NCBI RefSeq assembly: GCF_021729015.1
Contig: NZ_JAJQQZ010000003.1
Span: forward strand, 124,001-188,000
Direction of reading: 5' to 3'
Source: Halobacterium rubrum
Lineage (GTDB): Archaea > Halobacteriota > Halobacteria > Halobacteriales > Halobacteriaceae
Length of the DNA: 64,000 nucleotides
In this document: piece after piece, positions 49,401-56,678 of the stretch
Layout of the letters: each line of letters starts with the position of its first letter
Numbering within the stretch: the stretch's first letter is position 1
Position numbers and translations under genes: made by a program
The notes under the pieces: model-generated
The model's database searches: none
What the model saw: the letters and a program-made list of their open reading frames with translations, nothing else
What the model was told of the DNA's origin: nothing

Positions 49401-50099
49401 ATGTGTGGCCGGTACGCGCTGTTCTCCGACCCATCCGACCTGCGGGACGCGTTCGGACTCGACGAGGCGGGCTTCGAGTCGACGTACAACGCCGCGCCGA
49501 GCGAGGAGTTGCCCGTGATTCTTAGCGAGTCGCCAGACCGCCTGACGAGCGCTCGCTGGGGGCTGGTGCCGGAGTGGTCCGAGGGTCCCCGGGCGGACCC
49601 CGACCCCATCAACGCTCGCGCCGAGTCGCTGACAGAGAAGCGCCACTTCAGCGAGGCGTACGAGCAGCGGCGGTGTCTGGTCCCCGTCGACGGCTTCTAC
49701 GAGTGGGTCGAGGGGGGAGACGGCGGGAAGACGCCGTACTTCGTCTCCCGGGCAGACGACCGGCCGTTCCTGCTGGCGGGGCTCTGGGAGACGTGGACGC
49801 CCGAGCAGACACAGACCGGGCTCGGCGAGTTCGGGGGCGGCGACGGCGAGCCGAACCGGGACCCCGAGCCGGTGCAGTCGTTTACCGTCGTCACGACAGA
49901 ACCCAACGACTTCCTCGCCGACTACCACCACCGGATGGCGGTGCCCCTGGACCGCGAACTGGGCGACCGATGGCTGACGGCTGACAACCCGGAGGAGTTA
50001 CTGGAGCCCCGGGAATTCGGATTCGAAGCGTGGCCGGTGTCTTCGGCGGTCAACGACCCGTCCAACGACCACGCTGGCCTCGTGGAACCGGTCCCGTGA
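49401..50099 (+). CDS. SRAP (YedK/HMCES-like) abasic-site DNA-protein crosslinking protein
   Basis: SRAP proteins bind abasic sites in single-stranded DNA and form a covalent thiazolidine with the N-terminal cysteine. The 232-residue protein starts Met-Cys2-Gly-Arg-Tyr, has YNAAPSEELPVI, the RWGLVPEW motif, NARAESL with the conserved Asn/Glu, RRCLVPVDGFYEW, and the catalytic His in HHRMAVPL. It lies 29 bases after fbp, probably by chance of packing rather than pathway. Confidence 0.93.
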   Translation: MCGRYALFSDPSDLRDAFGLDEAGFESTYNAAPSEELPVILSESPDRLTSARWGLVPEWSEGPRADPDPINARAESLTEKRHFSEAYEQRRCLVPVDGFYEWVEGGDGGKTPYFVSRADDRPFLLAGLWETWTPEQTQTGLGEFGGGDGEPNRDPEPVQSFTVVTTEPNDFLADYHHRMAVPLDRELGDRWLTADNPEELLEPREFGFEAWPVSSAVNDPSNDHAGLVEPVP

Positions 50100-50152
50100 A
50101 CTCGGAACTGGCCGAACACACTTCACGGTCGCCAGTGAATTTTCACGGGCAC

Positions 50153-51403
50153 ATGACTGGCATCGAGTACGAGGACTTCGTCGACGAAGGCTACGAGCCC
50201 CGGGACACGGACCTGGTCTGCCAGTTCGTGCTCGACCCGGGTGAGGGAATGGACATGGTGGACGCCGCCGGCCGAGTGGCGTCCGAGAGTTCGAACGGGA
50301 CGTGGGCGGCGCTGAACGTCCCGGAACGAGTCACGGAGCTGTCGGCGACGGCCTACGACATCGGCGACGGCGAGGTGACGGTGGCGTACCCCGGCGACCT
50401 CTTCGAGGCGGGGAACATGCCCCAGATTCTGTCCTGCATCGCGGGCAACATCATGGGCATGAAGGCCGTCGACTCTATCCGGCTGGCGGACTGCGAGTGG
50501 CCGGCGGAGCTGGCGACGTCGTTCCCGGGGCCGCAGTACGGCAGCGACGTGAAGACCGAGATTCTGGACGCCGAGGGCCGGCCGGCGACGGCGACGGTTC
50601 CGAAGCCGAAGGTGGGGCTGTCGACCGAGCAGCACGCACAGGTCGGCTACGACGCGTGGGTCGGCGGCGTCGACCTCCTCAAGGACGACGAGAACCTCAC
50701 GAACCAGTCGTTCAACCGGTTCGACGACCGCGTCAAGCAGTCCTTCGAGATGCGGGACCGCGCCGAGGACGAGACCGGCGACCGGAAGGACTACCTCGTG
50801 AACATCACGGCGGACACCGAGACGATGCTCGACCGGCTCGAACTCGTCGCCGAGCAGGGCGGCGGGTTCGTGATGGTCGACGTCGTCACCTGCGGGTGGT
50901 CGGCCGTCCAGACGGTCCGCGAACACGCGGAGAAGCACGGGCTCGCCATCCACGCGCACCGGGCGATGCACGCGGCGTTCGACCGGCTGGACCACCACGG
51001 CGTCTCGATGCGCGTGCTCGCGCAGGTGGCGCGTCTCACGGGCGTCGACCACATCCACACCGGGACGGCGGGCCTCGGGAAACTGGAGAACGAGGACACG
51101 CCCGGCATCAACGAGTGGCTCCGCGGCGACCTCCACGGGCTCAGTGACGTGCTGCCGGTGGCGTCCGGCGGCCTCCACCCGGGCACCGTCGCGCCGCTGC
51201 TGGACGCGCTCGGCTCCGACATCATCGTGCAGGTCGGTGGCGGCATCCACGGCCATCCCGACGGGACGGAGGCCGGCGCTCGCGCGCTCCAGCAGGCCAT
51301 CGACGCCTACCAGCGCGGCGTCGACGCCGAGGCGTACGCCGAGGACGGCCACGGCGAACTGGCGACGGCGCTGGACAAGTGGGGCACCGGGTCGCCGCGC
51401 TGA
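50153..51403 (+). CDS. rbcL: Form III ribulose-bisphosphate carboxylase
   Basis: This 416-residue archaeal RuBisCO has all catalytic elements: TVPKPKVGLS (Lys at ~151), GGVDLLKDDEN with the carbamylated Lys177 and metal-binding Asp/Glu, HAHRAMHAAF, loop 6 GTAGLGKLE with Lys310, VASGGLHPG and VGGGIHGHPDG. In archaea form III acts in the AMP/nucleoside pathway, fixing CO2 on ribulose-1,5-bisphosphate to yield 3-phosphoglycerate. The start at 50153 is inferred. TTCAC/GTGAA arms (50122-50139) and another TTCAC (50142-50146) precede it. Confidence 0.94.
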   Translation: MTGIEYEDFVDEGYEPRDTDLVCQFVLDPGEGMDMVDAAGRVASESSNGTWAALNVPERVTELSATAYDIGDGEVTVAYPGDLFEAGNMPQILSCIAGNIMGMKAVDSIRLADCEWPAELATSFPGPQYGSDVKTEILDAEGRPATATVPKPKVGLSTEQHAQVGYDAWVGGVDLLKDDENLTNQSFNRFDDRVKQSFEMRDRAEDETGDRKDYLVNITADTETMLDRLELVAEQGGGFVMVDVVTCGWSAVQTVREHAEKHGLAIHAHRAMHAAFDRLDHHGVSMRVLAQVARLTGVDHIHTGTAGLGKLENEDTPGINEWLRGDLHGLSDVLPVASGGLHPGTVAPLLDALGSDIIVQVGGGIHGHPDGTEAGARALQQAIDAYQRGVDAEAYAEDGHGELATALDKWGTGSPR

Positions 51404-51435: not shown

Positions 51436-51515
51436 GCTCCGGTGGCCGGCCGGGCAGGCCGGCGCGGAGCATGTCAGAGGCACAGCCGGTGCGAGTGCAC
51501 CAGCATGCGGCTGGA
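51436..51515 (+). other. Structured region after rbcL (two hairpins)
   Basis: GCCGGCC (51445-51451) and GGCCGGC (51457-51463) form a perfect 7-bp stem with a GGGCA loop, extended by GCTCC/GGAGC at 51436-51440 and 51466-51470. A second hairpin has GGTGC/GCACC (51488-51501) inside a CAGCC/GGCTG outer pair. No coding frame fits. It may be a terminator or 3' UTR structure of rbcL. Confidence 0.4.
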
Positions 51516-51637: not shown

Positions 51638-52408
51638 ATGACGGACGCCGGGCCGCCGCTGGAACTGCTCGCGCAGCGCGCCGAGCTGCTGCGAGCGGTC
51701 CGCGACGACCCCTCCCGGAAACCGGAACTGGCCGACGAACTCGCCGTCTCGCGGTCGACGGTCGACCGCGCCGTCCGGCAACTCGAAGCCAGCGGGCTCG
51801 TCACCCGGGCCGGCGGTAGCGTCTCGCTCACGCTGAAAGGGCGGCTCGCGCTGGACAGCTACGAGACGTTCGCGGCCCACCTCGCGGGACTGAACGCGGC
51901 CGACGCCGCCATCGAGCCGCTGCCGAACGACGCCCGCGTCGCGCCCGTCCTGTTCCGTGACGCGACCGTCGTCGAGGCGACGGCCGTCGCGCCCCAGCGA
52001 CCCACCGAGGCCTACCGGTCGCTCGTTGCGGACGCCACCCACGTCCGGGGGTACGCCAGCCGACTGCTGGACAGCACGGTCCCGACGCTGCGGGACCGAA
52101 TCGTCGACGAGGGCCTCGAACTGGACCTCGTGTTCGACCCGGACGTACTCGACGCGGTCCTCGGCGGGCACGGGGATGCCGTCGCCGACGCGCTCGACAC
52201 CGGCCGGCTCACGCTCCGCCAGACGGACGACGGTCTCGTGTACAGCCTCATGGTCCTCGACACGCCGACGTCGACGTACGCCTGTGCGCTGTTCTACGAC
52301 GACAGCGGACACGCCGGTCTCCTCTACAACGACGACCCGGACGCCGTCGAGTGGGCCGATGGCGTCTACGAATCCCTCCGCGAGGACGCCGACACGCTCT
52401 CGCCGTAG
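51638..52408 (+). CDS. Winged-helix regulator with FilR1-like C-terminal domain
   Basis: This 256-residue transcription factor has a winged helix at about residues 8-75 (KPELADELAVSRSTVDRAVRQLEASGLV) and a C-terminal domain (about 130-250: GLELDLVFDPDVLDAVL, NDDPDAVEWADGVYESLRE) matching the FilR1/DUF1724 pattern of methanogen and haloarchaeal regulators. It lies 72 bases upstream of an ABC cassette on the same strand and may control it. The ligand is unknown. Confidence 0.85.
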   Translation: MTDAGPPLELLAQRAELLRAVRDDPSRKPELADELAVSRSTVDRAVRQLEASGLVTRAGGSVSLTLKGRLALDSYETFAAHLAGLNAADAAIEPLPNDARVAPVLFRDATVVEATAVAPQRPTEAYRSLVADATHVRGYASRLLDSTVPTLRDRIVDEGLELDLVFDPDVLDAVLGGHGDAVADALDTGRLTLRQTDDGLVYSLMVLDTPTSTYACALFYDDSGHAGLLYNDDPDAVEWADGVYESLREDADTLSP

Positions 52409-52480
52409 GCGGGCCGCCACGGGGTGCGGGGCGCTGCCGATTACCCAACCCTCAAGCGGCCCCCGTGCTTCCACCCGTCC

Positions 52481-53344
52481 ATGATTTCGGTCAGGGGCCT
52501 CCAGAAGCGGTACGGCGACGTCACCGCCGTCGATGGCGTCTCCTTCGAGGTCGACACCGGTGAGGTGTTCGGCCTCGTGGGGCCGAACGGCGCCGGGAAG
52601 ACCTCCACGCTGAAGATGCTGTGCGGGCTCGTCGAGCCCTCCGCGGGCGACGTCACCGTCAACGGCTTCGACGCCGGTGAGACGGAGATGCGGCGGTCGC
52701 TGGGCTTCCTCCCGGAGGAGTCGCCGCTGTACGACGAGATGAGTCCCCGCGGCTACCTGCGCTTTTTCGCGGACCTCTACGACGTCGACCGCGAGACGGC
52801 GAACGAACGCATCGAAGCCGCTCTCGACCGACTCGACCTCGACGCCCGCGACCGGCCCGTCGGCGACTTCTCGAAGGGCATGAAGCGGAAGGTCGCCATC
52901 GCGCGGTCGCTCGTGAACGACCCGGACGTGCTCGTCTACGACGAGCCCGCCAGTGGCCTCGACCCGCTCACGACGAACACCGTCGTGGAGTTCACCCGGG
53001 AGCTCGCCGACGACGGCAAGACAATCGTGTTCAGCGCCCACGACCTCCACCACGTCGAGAGCGTCTGCGACCGCGTCGCCATCATGCGTGACGGCCAGCT
53101 CGCCGCCACCGGGACGCTGGCGGACATCCGCGAGGAGCACGGCGACGTGTCCTACCGGGTGTTCACGGACGTGCCCGTCGAGCGCTCGGAGCCGGCCGGC
53201 GACCGCCACGTGACCGCCGTCGACTCGATGGACGACGTCGAAGCCATCCGTTCGGCGGCCGCCGACGCCGGCGGCGAGGTCGTCGACATCCGTACCGACG
53301 AGTCGACGCTGGAGGACGTCTTCCTCGACGTGACCGGCACATGA
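52481..53344 (+). CDS. ABC transporter ATP-binding protein (NatA-like)
   Basis: This 287-residue ATPase has Walker A GPNGAGKTS near residue 37, signature DFSKGMKRKVAIA, Walker B VLVYDEPASGLD and SAHDLHHVE. It resembles NatA of Na+-exporting ABC systems and other ABC-2 exporters. The start at 52481 gives MISVRGLQKRYGDV. The gene overlaps the PrsW-fused permease gene by four bases. Confidence 0.92.
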   Translation: MISVRGLQKRYGDVTAVDGVSFEVDTGEVFGLVGPNGAGKTSTLKMLCGLVEPSAGDVTVNGFDAGETEMRRSLGFLPEESPLYDEMSPRGYLRFFADLYDVDRETANERIEAALDRLDLDARDRPVGDFSKGMKRKVAIARSLVNDPDVLVYDEPASGLDPLTTNTVVEFTRELADDGKTIVFSAHDLHHVESVCDRVAIMRDGQLAATGTLADIREEHGDVSYRVFTDVPVERSEPAGDRHVTAVDSMDDVEAIRSAAADAGGEVVDIRTDESTLEDVFLDVTGT

Positions 53345-55116
53345 AGGCCCGGAACGTCCTCCGGGTCGCCCGCTGGGAGACCACCCGGAGTGCGGGCGAC
53401 ATCGACCGCGAGACCGCCGTCGCGTTCGTCGTGGTGTTGCTCGCGCTGGCCGCCATCGTGCCGGCGCTGGTCACGATGGGGCCGACGCCGGGCGAGGGCA
53501 TCTACCGGGTCGGCGTCACGGAGGACAGCCAGTACGCCGACGTCGTCGCCAGCGACCCGCAGCTCGTGGCCGTCGACCCCGGCGCCGACGCCGACGTGGT
53601 CGTCACCGACACCACCATCACGTACGACGACACCGCCAAGGGCCGAGCGGCGCTGTCGACGCTCAGGTCCGCGACCGTCGGCTACAACGACTTCCTGATG
53701 CGCCAGGAGCCCGACCAGAACGCCGCCTTCCCGGTCGTGGTCTCGCTCACCTACCGCCCGCAGTCCATCGACGTTACGGGCACGCAGACCGGCGACGACG
53801 CTACCGACGACGACGACGACCTCGACGGGAGCGAGGGCGGTGCTGGCGCCGGGACTGGCGGCGACGACGGCCAGCAGGCCGGTGGCGACGGCGGCGGTGA
53901 CGGCGTCGCCGGCGGCGACGATATCCCGGCGACCGGCGGCGGCCTGAGCGGCCTGCTCGGGCAGGCGCAGTCCGGCACGCCGTCCTCGATTTCGCCGCCG
54001 TTTCCCCTGCAGTCGCTCGTGTTCGCGTTCGCGTTCCTGTTGCCACTGAACATCGTCATCCAGGCCTACGGCTCCAGCGTGCTCGCCGAACGCATCAACC
54101 GCCGCGGCGAACCGATGCTCGTCGCGCCGATCTCCCGGGGCGACATCGTCGCCGGGAAGACGCTACCGTACCTCCTCGGCGCGCTCGCGCTCATCTCCGC
54201 CATCGCCGCCGCGACTGGCGCCAGCGCGCTGGCCGTGCTCGCTGTCGCGCCGCTCGCGGCGCTGTTCCTCGCGGCGACGTTCTTCGGCGCGATGCTCGCC
54301 CGCTCGTACAAGGAACTCACGTTCGTCACCGTCACCGTCAGCGTCGCGCTCACGGCGTACGCGTTCGTGCCCGCCGTCTTCGCCGAAGTCCACCCCATCG
54401 CCGCCATCTCACCGCTCACGGTTGTCGTCGACTCTATCACGGGCGACGGCGTGACCGCCGGCCAGTTCGTGCTCTCGACGGTTCCGCCGGGGCTGGCGGC
54501 GTTCGTGCTGTTCGGGCTCGGCACGGGCGTCTACCGCGAGGAGGACATGTTCACGCAGCTCCCGATTCCGTCGAAGCTGCTGGACGCGCTGGCCGCGCCG
54601 CTCACGACGCGGTGGCGCGCCGGCCTCTGGACGGCGCTGTTCCTGCCGTTTGTCTTCGTCGCCGAACTGTTCGCCGTCGCCGTGCTGTTCGTCGCCCCGG
54701 TCTCCATCTCGATACCGCTGTTGCTGGGCACGGTGGCCGTCATCGAGGAGGTCGCCAAGAGCATCCACGTGTTCGCCGGCTTCGAGCGCGGCCAGTACGA
54801 CCGGACGTTCCGGAACGCGCTGGTCGTCGGCGCCGCCTCCGGCGTCGGCTTCTTCCTCGCGGAGAAGCTCCTGCTGGTCACCCAGCTCGTCGGCCTGCCG
54901 GAACTGGACGTCGCGCAGGCGGCGTTCTCGCCGGAGCTCCTCGGAGCGTCGCCGGGCCTCCTGCTCGTCGCGCCGCTGGCGCTGCACGTCGTGACGGCGG
55001 CGGTCTCCGCTGTCGGCGCGGCCCGGTCCCGGCTGGCGTACCTCGGCACGCTCGCGCTGGCAATCGTCTTGCACGTCGCGTACAACCTCGCCGTGGTGGT
55101 GGTCTCCCTTGGGTAG
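53341..55116 (+). CDS. ABC-2/NatB-like permease fused to a PrsW-type intramembrane protease
   Basis: This is a 591-residue membrane protein. Residues ~1-410 are an ABC-2 permease: an N-terminal helix (24-46), a long outer region with a Gly/Asp-rich low-complexity stretch (~145-205), then helices from ~225 (LAERINRRGEPMLVAPISRGDIVAGK is the NatB-like loop). Residues ~430-591 are PrsW-like, with metal/catalytic motifs EEVAK (about 469), FFLAE (about 503), a helix His in APLALHVVTAAVSAVG (about 548) and LHVAYN (about 578). PrsW-family proteases cleave membrane-bound regulators. A single polypeptide joining exporter and protease is striking. TAG overlaps the next permease start. Confidence 0.85.
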   Translation: MKARNVLRVARWETTRSAGDIDRETAVAFVVVLLALAAIVPALVTMGPTPGEGIYRVGVTEDSQYADVVASDPQLVAVDPGADADVVVTDTTITYDDTAKGRAALSTLRSATVGYNDFLMRQEPDQNAAFPVVVSLTYRPQSIDVTGTQTGDDATDDDDDLDGSEGGAGAGTGGDDGQQAGGDGGGDGVAGGDDIPATGGGLSGLLGQAQSGTPSSISPPFPLQSLVFAFAFLLPLNIVIQAYGSSVLAERINRRGEPMLVAPISRGDIVAGKTLPYLLGALALISAIAAATGASALAVLAVAPLAALFLAATFFGAMLARSYKELTFVTVTVSVALTAYAFVPAVFAEVHPIAAISPLTVVVDSITGDGVTAGQFVLSTVPPGLAAFVLFGLGTGVYREEDMFTQLPIPSKLLDALAAPLTTRWRAGLWTALFLPFVFVAELFAVAVLFVAPVSISIPLLLGTVAVIEEVAKSIHVFAGFERGQYDRTFRNALVVGAASGVGFFLAEKLLLVTQLVGLPELDVAQAAFSPELLGASPGLLLVAPLALHVVTAAVSAVGAARSRLAYLGTLALAIVLHVAYNLAVVVVSLG

Positions 55117-56155
55117 CCGCCTCGTCCTCGCGCGGCGCACGCTCGGGTCGCTGCGCTCCGAGAAGACCATCGTGCTCGCGCTCGTCATCCAGCTGTTCAT
55201 CGCGGGGTTCTCGTCCTTTCTGGTCGTCGGCCTCGTCTCGCTGTACGACCCCGGCTCCACTGAGAGCGGCGCCCTCGACGTCGAAGTCGGCGTCACCGGG
55301 AACGCTTCCGCGGAGGTCGCTACCGCGATAGCCGGCGACGACGGCCGCAGCGCCGTCCCCTACGGGTCGCAGTCCGCCGCCAGCGCCGCCTTCCAGCGAG
55401 GCGAGGTACAGGCGCTCGTCCACGCCACCCAGCAACCGAGTGGACGCATACTGGTGGAAGCGACAGCGCCGGAGGGGTCGTTCCGCACGACGCTCGTCGT
55501 CACGGAGCTCAAGGACGCGCTCTCCACGCTGGAGCGCGAGCAGCGCGCCACCTTCTCCCACCGGCTGGAACGCCAGCCGATCGCGCTGCCGCCCGAGGAG
55601 CAGTCCAATCCGTACTTCTCGTTCACCTACACGGTCTTGCTCCCGCTGCTGGCGTTCCTGCCGGCGTTCATCTCCGGGAGCGTGATGGCCGACTCGCTCG
55701 CCGAGGAGGCCGAACGCGGCACGCTCGAGCTGCTGCGGGTCGCGCCGCTGTCGCTGCGGGACGTCGTCGACGGGAAGGCCATCGCGCTCGTCGGGCTGGC
55801 GCCGGCGCAGGTCGCGCTCTGGCTCGCGTTGCTCTCGTACAACGGCACCGCCATCGCGAACCCGGTGGCGGTGCTCGCGCTCGTCGCCGGCGTCGCCGCC
55901 GTGCTGGTCGCCGGTGGCGCCGCGCTGGCGCTCCGCATCGGCGCGCGCCGGGAGGCGCAGTTGCTGTACTCGTTCGTCGCGCTGGGCGCGTTCGGCGCCG
56001 CCAGCCTCCTCCCGCAGAGCCCCCAGAACCTCGTCGCGCGGCTCGCCGTCGACAGCCCCACGACGTTCACGTGGCTCACGCTCGCGGCGACGCTCGCGCT
56101 CGCCGCAGCGGCGTACGCCGGCCTGCGGTGGCTGGCGGGCGGCGGCGAGACCTGA
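55109..56155 (+). CDS. NatB-like ABC-2 permease, second subunit
   Basis: This 348-residue permease has an N-terminal helix (22-44), an extracytoplasmic domain (~50-165) and five C-terminal helices, with SVMADSLAEEAERGTLELLRVAPLSLRD as the conserved cytoplasmic loop. A TTG start at 55109 overlapping the previous stop by eight bases is the best choice because LVLARRTLGSLRSEKT follows and no ATG/GTG fits. It completes the heterodimeric permease of the cassette. Confidence 0.85.
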   Translation: MGSRLVLARRTLGSLRSEKTIVLALVIQLFIAGFSSFLVVGLVSLYDPGSTESGALDVEVGVTGNASAEVATAIAGDDGRSAVPYGSQSAASAAFQRGEVQALVHATQQPSGRILVEATAPEGSFRTTLVVTELKDALSTLEREQRATFSHRLERQPIALPPEEQSNPYFSFTYTVLLPLLAFLPAFISGSVMADSLAEEAERGTLELLRVAPLSLRDVVDGKAIALVGLAPAQVALWLALLSYNGTAIANPVAVLALVAGVAAVLVAGGAALALRIGARREAQLLYSFVALGAFGAASLLPQSPQNLVARLAVDSPTTFTWLTLAATLALAAAAYAGLRWLAGGGET

Positions 56156-56192: not shown

Positions 56193-56678
56193 TCAGGACC
56201 GGACGTACTTGACGGCGGTCAGGAGGACGCCCACCAGCCCGACTGCGACGAGCTTCACCGGCGTGTCCGTCCGCTGGTTCTTCAGGAAGGCGTTCCCGGG
56301 GGTCGAGGGGTCGACGTACGCCGTCACCGTGCCGCCGGCCTCGTACTCGGCGACGACCTCGCGGGCCGCCGACTCGGTGTCGTAGTCCGGCGTCACCGAC
56401 CCCGGGAACACCGAGTTCCCGGTGTAGTCCTCGCCGTCGTAGCTGTACTCGAAGGTCGCCGTCGGTACGTGGTCGACGCGTCCACGGCGCCCGGACTCCT
56501 GCTCGACGCCCGTCTCGACGACCGTCGCGTCGACCTCGACGGAGTCCCGCACTGCCTCGGACTGCTGGAGGTAGTCGTAGCCGCCGTAGCCGGCGACTGC
56601 GACGCTCACGACGAGGAACACGAGGACGCCGCGGGAGGACTCGCTGTCGCCGTTACCGATGTTGATTCTCGGGGACAC
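56193..56678 (-). CDS. DUF3592-type membrane protein
   Basis: This 161-residue protein has a membrane helix near each end (about 17-36 and 138-157) and a beta-rich outer domain containing EVDATVVETGVEQE, PTATFEYSYDGEDYTGNSVFPG and VTAYVDPSTPGNAFL, the pattern of DUF3592. Function unknown; such domains often accompany cell-surface or stress genes. GTG start at 56678. Confidence 0.8.
   Translation of the reverse strand: MSPRINIGNGDSESSRGVLVFLVVSVAVAGYGGYDYLQQSEAVRDSVEVDATVVETGVEQESGRRGRVDHVPTATFEYSYDGEDYTGNSVFPGSVTPDYDTESAAREVVAEYEAGGTVTAYVDPSTPGNAFLKNQRTDTPVKLVAVGLVGVLLTAVKYVRS

Follow-up and report, generated by a model that had tools for sequence, protein, structure and literature searches.

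The window analysed here is a stretch of 64,000 nucleotides from a Halobacterium-type haloarchaeon (G000:C3:124001-188000). It carries a gene for a protein of 591 residues in which half of an ATP-binding cassette (ABC) transporter permease is joined to a putative intramembrane protease of the PrsW type. The gene is the middle one of three:

52481-53344, forward strand: ABC ATPase, DrrA/GldA/NatA-like (PF00005, E value 8.7e-30; TIGR01188 DrrA, 242 bits, under the cut-off)
53341-55116, forward strand: fusion of ABC-2 half-permease and PrsW intramembrane protease, 591 amino acids, one open reading frame (ORF)
55109-56155, forward strand: partner half-permease, 348 amino acids, no protease domain (PF12698, E value 5.1e-15)

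The frame of the ATPase is open from position 52424, with the ATG at 52481 as its likely start. Its stop and the start of the fusion overlap by 4 bp, and the frame of the partner permease overlaps the stop of the fusion by 8 bp. Judged from these frames, the ATPase, the permease-PrsW fusion and the second half-permease are a translationally coupled operon. Among 76 haloarchaeal three-gene loci, the stop of the ATPase overlapped the start of the fusion or was separated from it by a gap of no more than about 60 bases in 72 (median −4).

The fusion is made up of the following parts, in which TM stands for transmembrane helix and pLDDT for the predicted local distance difference test:

53341-54552, forward strand: half-permease domain, residues 1-404, with an interfacial helix, TM1, an extracellular domain and TM2-TM6
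53752-53994, forward strand: acidic, disordered part of the extracellular domain, rich in Gly and Asp, residues ~138-218 (pLDDT <50)
54553-55113, forward strand: PrsW domain, residues 405-591, TM7-TM11 (PF13367, AlphaFold2 and hhalign to canonical PrsW)
54745-54759, forward strand: motif 1, E469-E470-V-A-K473 (EExxK), in TM8; both E and the K invariant in 41 of 41 domains
54862-54867, forward strand: motif 2, E508-K509 (FFxxEK), in TM9; invariant in 41 of 41
54985-54987, forward strand: motif 3, H549, in TM10; invariant in 41 of 41
55072-55086, forward strand: motif 4, H578-V-A-Y-N582 (HxxxN), in TM11; H invariant, the last position N in 34 of 36 and D in 2 of 36

The original prediction, whose span of 53341-56155 took in the fusion plus the second permease, had described the 591-residue protein as an N-terminal ABC-2 permease followed by a PrsW-like domain, and both the PF13367 matches and the permease profile comparisons agree with this. 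In the genome search PF13367 scored 38.6 bits at positions 54598-55104, where the cut-off is 23.5, and residues 405-591 scanned alone gave 36.8 bits (E value 3.8e-9), 13 bits above the cut-off. It must be noted that hmmscan of the full-length fusion protein reported no Pfam family, a miss that we suspect is due to the HMMER speed filters, and that fused intramembrane proteases may be under-annotated owing to such misses. A RefSeq copy of the fusion carries only the label "ABC transporter permease subunit", maybe in part because the full-length scan misses the PrsW domain. PF13367 matched 16 of the 41 homologous fused domains at E values up to 10.

Profile-profile comparison (hhalign) with 19 canonical archaeal PrsW domains gave a probability of 95.8% (E value 7e-9), with EExxK, FxxxE, the His and HxxxN in register. 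The motifs named earlier (EEVAK, FFLAE, the one with H549, and HVAYN) align with their canonical counterparts, so that the refuting outcome set for them, a lack of alignment with PrsW, did not occur. The same comparison of the PrsW domain with the partner permease, which served as a negative control, gave a probability of 0.1%. PrsW proteins are reported to differ from type II CAAX proteases by EExxK in place of EExxxR and by an extra conserved His in the helix that precedes HxxxN/D (PMC4602095), and the window fusion has both features (E469-E470-V-A-K473 and H549). PF02517 (CPBP) had no match at the fusion locus at E values up to 10, while it exceeded its cut-off at five other places in the same genome. 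The EExxK motif and the extra His, together with this missing match, ruled out a CPBP identity. A frameshift or assembly artefact was also ruled out, as the architecture recurs in 81 haloarchaeal homologues and in more than 20 distant ones. The 591-residue ORF was thus confirmed, at the level of sequence, as an ABC-2 half-permease fused to a predicted PrsW-type glutamic intramembrane protease domain.

The catalytic motifs are conserved well beyond the window. In the 41 domains collected across the Halobacteriota, which reach down to 22% identity to that of the window (window numbering being that of the domain plus 404), the sole invariant residues were E469, E470, K473, E508, K509, P545, H549 and H578. 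In an alignment of 81 haloarchaeal sequences E469, E470, K473, E508, K509, H549 and H578 were invariant, and residue 582 was N in 79 of the sequences, the other 2 having D. Distant non-haloarchaeal members, aligned from the fetched regions, keep every motif. Since the active-site residues are invariant at identities down to 22%, selection on catalysis appears to have acted on the domain. These residues are the strongest evidence on the point, and they argue that the PrsW domain would work as an enzyme. As every complete homologue that was aligned keeps them, the prediction that the transporter is fused to a functional protease is well supported.

The survey of homologues that had been proposed for co-conservation of the fusion found it, by profile search, in 204 of 393 Halobacteriota genomes, three of them weak partial matches (G164, G251 and G309). 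It was present in about 60 of 81 haloarchaea (~74%) and in many other families, mostly methanogens; methyl-coenzyme M reductase was found in 17 of the 25 non-haloarchaeal fusion genomes tested for it. A separate genome scan yielded 112 relatives; the 80 loci retained came without exception from haloarchaea or from one unplaced euryarchaeal metagenome-assembled genome. One pattern used in the scan held the E508-K509 segment, which gave haloarchaeal retrieval a slight bias at that place; the search of the 393 genomes by profile was unaffected. No relatives were found in viral contigs, and the plasmid search found one copy, on a haloarchaeal megaplasmid. In Halorussus salinisoli a complete operon (L007) is accompanied by a further copy of the fusion (L010, 6001-7932) with no ATPase or partner permease nearby.

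The fused PrsW domains formed one clade with respect to canonical PrsW, with a value of 99 in the Shimodaira-Hasegawa-like approximate likelihood ratio test, in a quick tree in which long branches were flagged. The mean pairwise identities of the two halves were similar (35% for the permease and 34% for the protease) and correlated (rho 0.67). The single clade and the correlated divergence point to one old fusion followed by joint descent of the halves. When the ORFs of 109 loci were clustered, the fusion was found in 107, the partner permease in 106 and the ATPase in 102; no further gene was common to the set, and no substrate, small-peptide or anti-sigma-like gene was conserved around these loci, the other clusters of similar size being antisense frames of the operon genes. 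The partner permease was present in all four fusion genomes checked; of 21 fusion-less genomes, 20 lacked it as well. The remaining one, the haloarchaeon G309, has lost the fusion and keeps a truncated 219-residue piece of the partner permease (G309:C1:1602523-1602993, L217), which looks like an operon caught decaying. At the level of sequence, the fusion is shown to be paired obligately with the second permease. In most non-haloarchaeal loci (among L145-L165) the ATPase is transcribed divergently from the fusion and the partner permease. The gene association survives rearrangement, since in those loci the ATPase is divergent and not upstream on the same strand. This conservation shows that permease and protease have long been linked under selection, and that their fusion is not a product of chance.

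With respect to the N-terminal half, the permease of the window protein had no direct Pfam match, and PF12698 (ABC2_membrane_3) matched 23 of 34 orthologues. Over residues ~3-398 it aligned with the adjacent partner permease at 98.4% probability (hhalign, E value 7e-15), and the gene of its cognate ATPase (52481-53344) adjoins it. AlphaFold2 modelling of the whole fusion on 51 homologues gave an overall pLDDT of 81, with permease helices at residues 3-20, 23-46, 223-253, 266-292, 296-319, 323-346 and 373-397. Residues ~138-218 were poorly conserved and variable among homologues. TM7-11 of the PrsW domain had pLDDT values mostly above 90 in the full-length model, and the domain folded alone (41 homologues) reached a mean of 92.6, each motif lying in the middle of a helix, in four consecutive core helices. 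Short loops bearing Arg or Lys (253-266, 319-323, 482-490 and 562-565) would suit the topology expected of an ABC-2 permease whose link, near residue 400, is cytoplasmic. In a fold search of the PDB, the best match of the PrsW domain was APH-1 of gamma-secretase, which was not significant (E value 0.63); APH-1 is a known distant relative of PrsW. The whole model gave weak matches only, the best being a mycobacterial ABC efflux pump (E value 0.23), and no solved relatives were found by sequence for the PrsW domain or the full-length fusion.

The nearest described arrangement is NCBIfam NF041647, a fusion of ABC permease and CPBP protease, in which, likewise, one polypeptide has an ABC-2 permease as its N-terminal half and an intramembrane protease of the glutamic type as its C-terminal half. 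We take its members to be bacterial and known as an annotation model only. Its protease half is CPBP, whereas that of the window is PrsW, with EExxK and the extra His. The window fusion did not match NF041647 at E values up to 1, and nothing in the genome of the window exceeded the 435-bit cut-off of the model; it was the partner permease, and not the fusion, that weakly resembled the NF041647 permease part (22 bits). In the open-access literature we found no paper on the PrsW fusion or on the ABC permease/CPBP fusion. At the annotation level the general kind, in which a glutamic intramembrane protease is joined to an ABC-2 permease, is therefore already known, and if the two fusions arose independently, the functional link would be the stronger for it.

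Canonical PrsW, that is, B. subtilis PrsW and the stand-alone archaeal proteins such as L001 in the genome of the window, shares all four motifs in register; it differs in being unfused and in forming a separate clade, and the window fusion is without a sigma/anti-sigma context. For the PrsW-toxin fusions of polymorphic toxin systems, a coupling of processing to extrusion has been proposed (PMC3482391); in these the toxin domains follow an N-terminal PrsW, and an ABC permease fusion is not mentioned in that work. Available portions of two reviews of haloarchaeal membrane proteases likewise do not mention an ABC-fused PrsW (PMC4343526, PMC9263693), and the table seen in the H. volcanii review has a single PrsW-like protein, HVO_0408 (PMC9263693). 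The fusion adds a predicted protease to the archaeal inventory.

We tentatively favour the reading that the operon encodes a heterodimeric ABC exporter which may quite possibly cleave and extrude hydrophobic membrane peptides. Two copies of the ATPase would drive a heterodimer of half-permeases, one of them carrying at its C-terminus a catalytically competent PrsW-type glutamic protease. The protease would cut hydrophobic transmembrane peptides inside the membrane, candidates being signal-peptide or anchor remnants, small membrane proteins and peptide precursors, and the attached transporter would use ATP to pull the cut fragments out of the bilayer. We infer the heterodimer assembly, the proteolytic activity, the direction of export and the identity of the cleavage products with the transported substrate. 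A general rather than a dedicated substrate is suited to the fact that no third gene is conserved nearby. As a candidate link to cleaved anchors, archaeosortase A (ArtA) was considered and set aside: it is present in 374 of the 393 genomes, fusion-less ones included, and co-occurrence is uninformative for a protein that is near-universal in the phylum.

Two bacterial systems serve as models for this mechanism. Loss of the Ecs exporter blocks intramembrane proteolysis by RasP, and a membrane-cleaning role has been proposed (PMC2996298, PMC7478892); PptAB, a relative of Ecs, exports peptides once the intramembrane protease Eep has matured them, and a direct hand-over between the two has been suggested (PMC7564271). 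In both systems, EcsAB/RasP and PptAB/Eep of Bacillota, the function of an ABC exporter is likewise linked to that of an intramembrane protease, and the fusion would be the one-piece version of these separate pairs, giving the hand-over a physical form. Some points weigh against such a mechanism. RasP and Eep are separate proteins and site-2 protease (S2P) metalloproteases, a different class with which no homology is claimed, so that the parallel extends to function only, as an analogy. Haloarchaea can do without the gene: about a quarter of them lack the fusion, three genomes of the Halobacterium group included. In addition, the transport substrate need not be a cleaved peptide, because ABC-2 transporters of the same layout export drugs, lipids and ions.

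Since the fusion and its catalytic residues are kept throughout the phylum, it is probably a genuine machine, as yet uncharacterised, for cutting membrane peptides and pumping the products away. It is conceivable, although we would hold it with some doubt, that proteolysis and ATP-driven extraction are combined in one fused complex throughout this archaeal phylum, as a unit for membrane-peptide disposal or secretion that was overlooked through permease-only annotation. How cells dispose of the hydrophobic stubs that signal peptidases, sortases and intramembrane proteases leave behind is largely an open question, and a fused protease-exporter, if true, would make stub clearance directly testable in a genetically tractable archaeon.

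An alternative is a dedicated processing exporter, in which the protease would trim or remove the leader of one secreted peptide or small protein during its export, as in exporters with a C39 peptidase (peptidase-containing ABC transporters, PCAT) or in the exporters of bacteriocin loci that work alongside a CAAX-type protease made as a separate protein. The layout of a protease fused to an exporter is that of PCAT, where the protease is also covalently part of the ABC exporter; the C39 domain is a soluble cysteine protease, N-terminal and on another class of ABC exporter, while in the window fusion the protease is glutamic and intramembrane and follows an ABC-2 half-permease at its C-terminus. 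Bacteriocin loci that pair an ABC exporter with a CPBP protease are known, and extra copies in some species, such as those of Halorussus salinisoli (L007 and L010), would also fit a dedicated role. However, no small ORF or modifying enzyme next to the operon was conserved across the 109 loci, and the broad, mostly vertical distribution is unlike that of peptide-toxin loci. We consider a dedicated exporter unlikely.

Regulated proteolysis was closer to what had been suggested originally, namely cleavage of a partner on transport with release of a regulator. Here the permease would be a sensor or gate, and a conformational change of the ABC unit would switch the PrsW domain onto a membrane-bound regulator. 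B. subtilis PrsW is the site-1 protease for RsiW (PMC4602095), the state of an ABC transporter is coupled to intramembrane proteolysis in EcsAB/RasP (PMC7478892), and a helix-turn-helix regulator adjoins the operon in Halobacterium:

51638-52408, forward strand: transcriptional regulator with an HVO_A0261_N winged helix (PF08350, E value 1.1e-27) and FilR1_middle (PF25213, E value 1.8e-17)

Its open frame begins at 51515, the start codon at 51638 being our choice. As had been described, this regulator, the ATPase and the second permease flank the fusion. Among the 80 other loci, however, a BLAST homologue of the regulator was in place at no more than 2, which belong to Halobacterium. The FilR1-type regulator, detected in Halobacterium loci only, is not part of the conserved unit. 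Nor does it have an obvious membrane domain, and an anti-sigma partner was conserved nearby in none of the 109 loci; to our knowledge, archaea have no sigma factors. Release of a regulator thus found no support in the neighbourhood, where no anti-sigma-like or small-peptide gene was conserved, and we regard regulated proteolysis as quite improbable. The processing of a secreted or membrane peptide, also raised in the original prediction, is closer to the exporter of cleaved membrane peptides that we favour.

A role in quality control seems very unlikely. The protease would then degrade orphan or damaged transporter subunits or misfolded membrane proteins, export of the fragments being uninvolved, and intramembrane proteases with such roles are known; the gene is also non-essential yet broadly kept. 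This would leave unexplained why, across a phylum, the protease is fused to one half-permease instead of being free, and the same genome already has free PrsW and CPBP proteases. That the PrsW fold is a scaffold or pseudoenzyme that supports the transporter without catalysis, like APH-1, is hardly credible, as the few positions of the domain that never vary include the catalytic residues, which scaffolds usually lose.

With regard to the neighbouring genes, a DUF3592 membrane protein on the reverse strand (56193-56678) converges on the operon, and its BLAST homologue was in place only in the genome of the window itself. Directly upstream of the regulator, on the forward strand, lies a gene for a RuBisCO large-chain protein (50030-51403; PF00016, E value 3e-80; PF02788, E value 3.1e-39), which is probably the archaeal AMP-pathway form.

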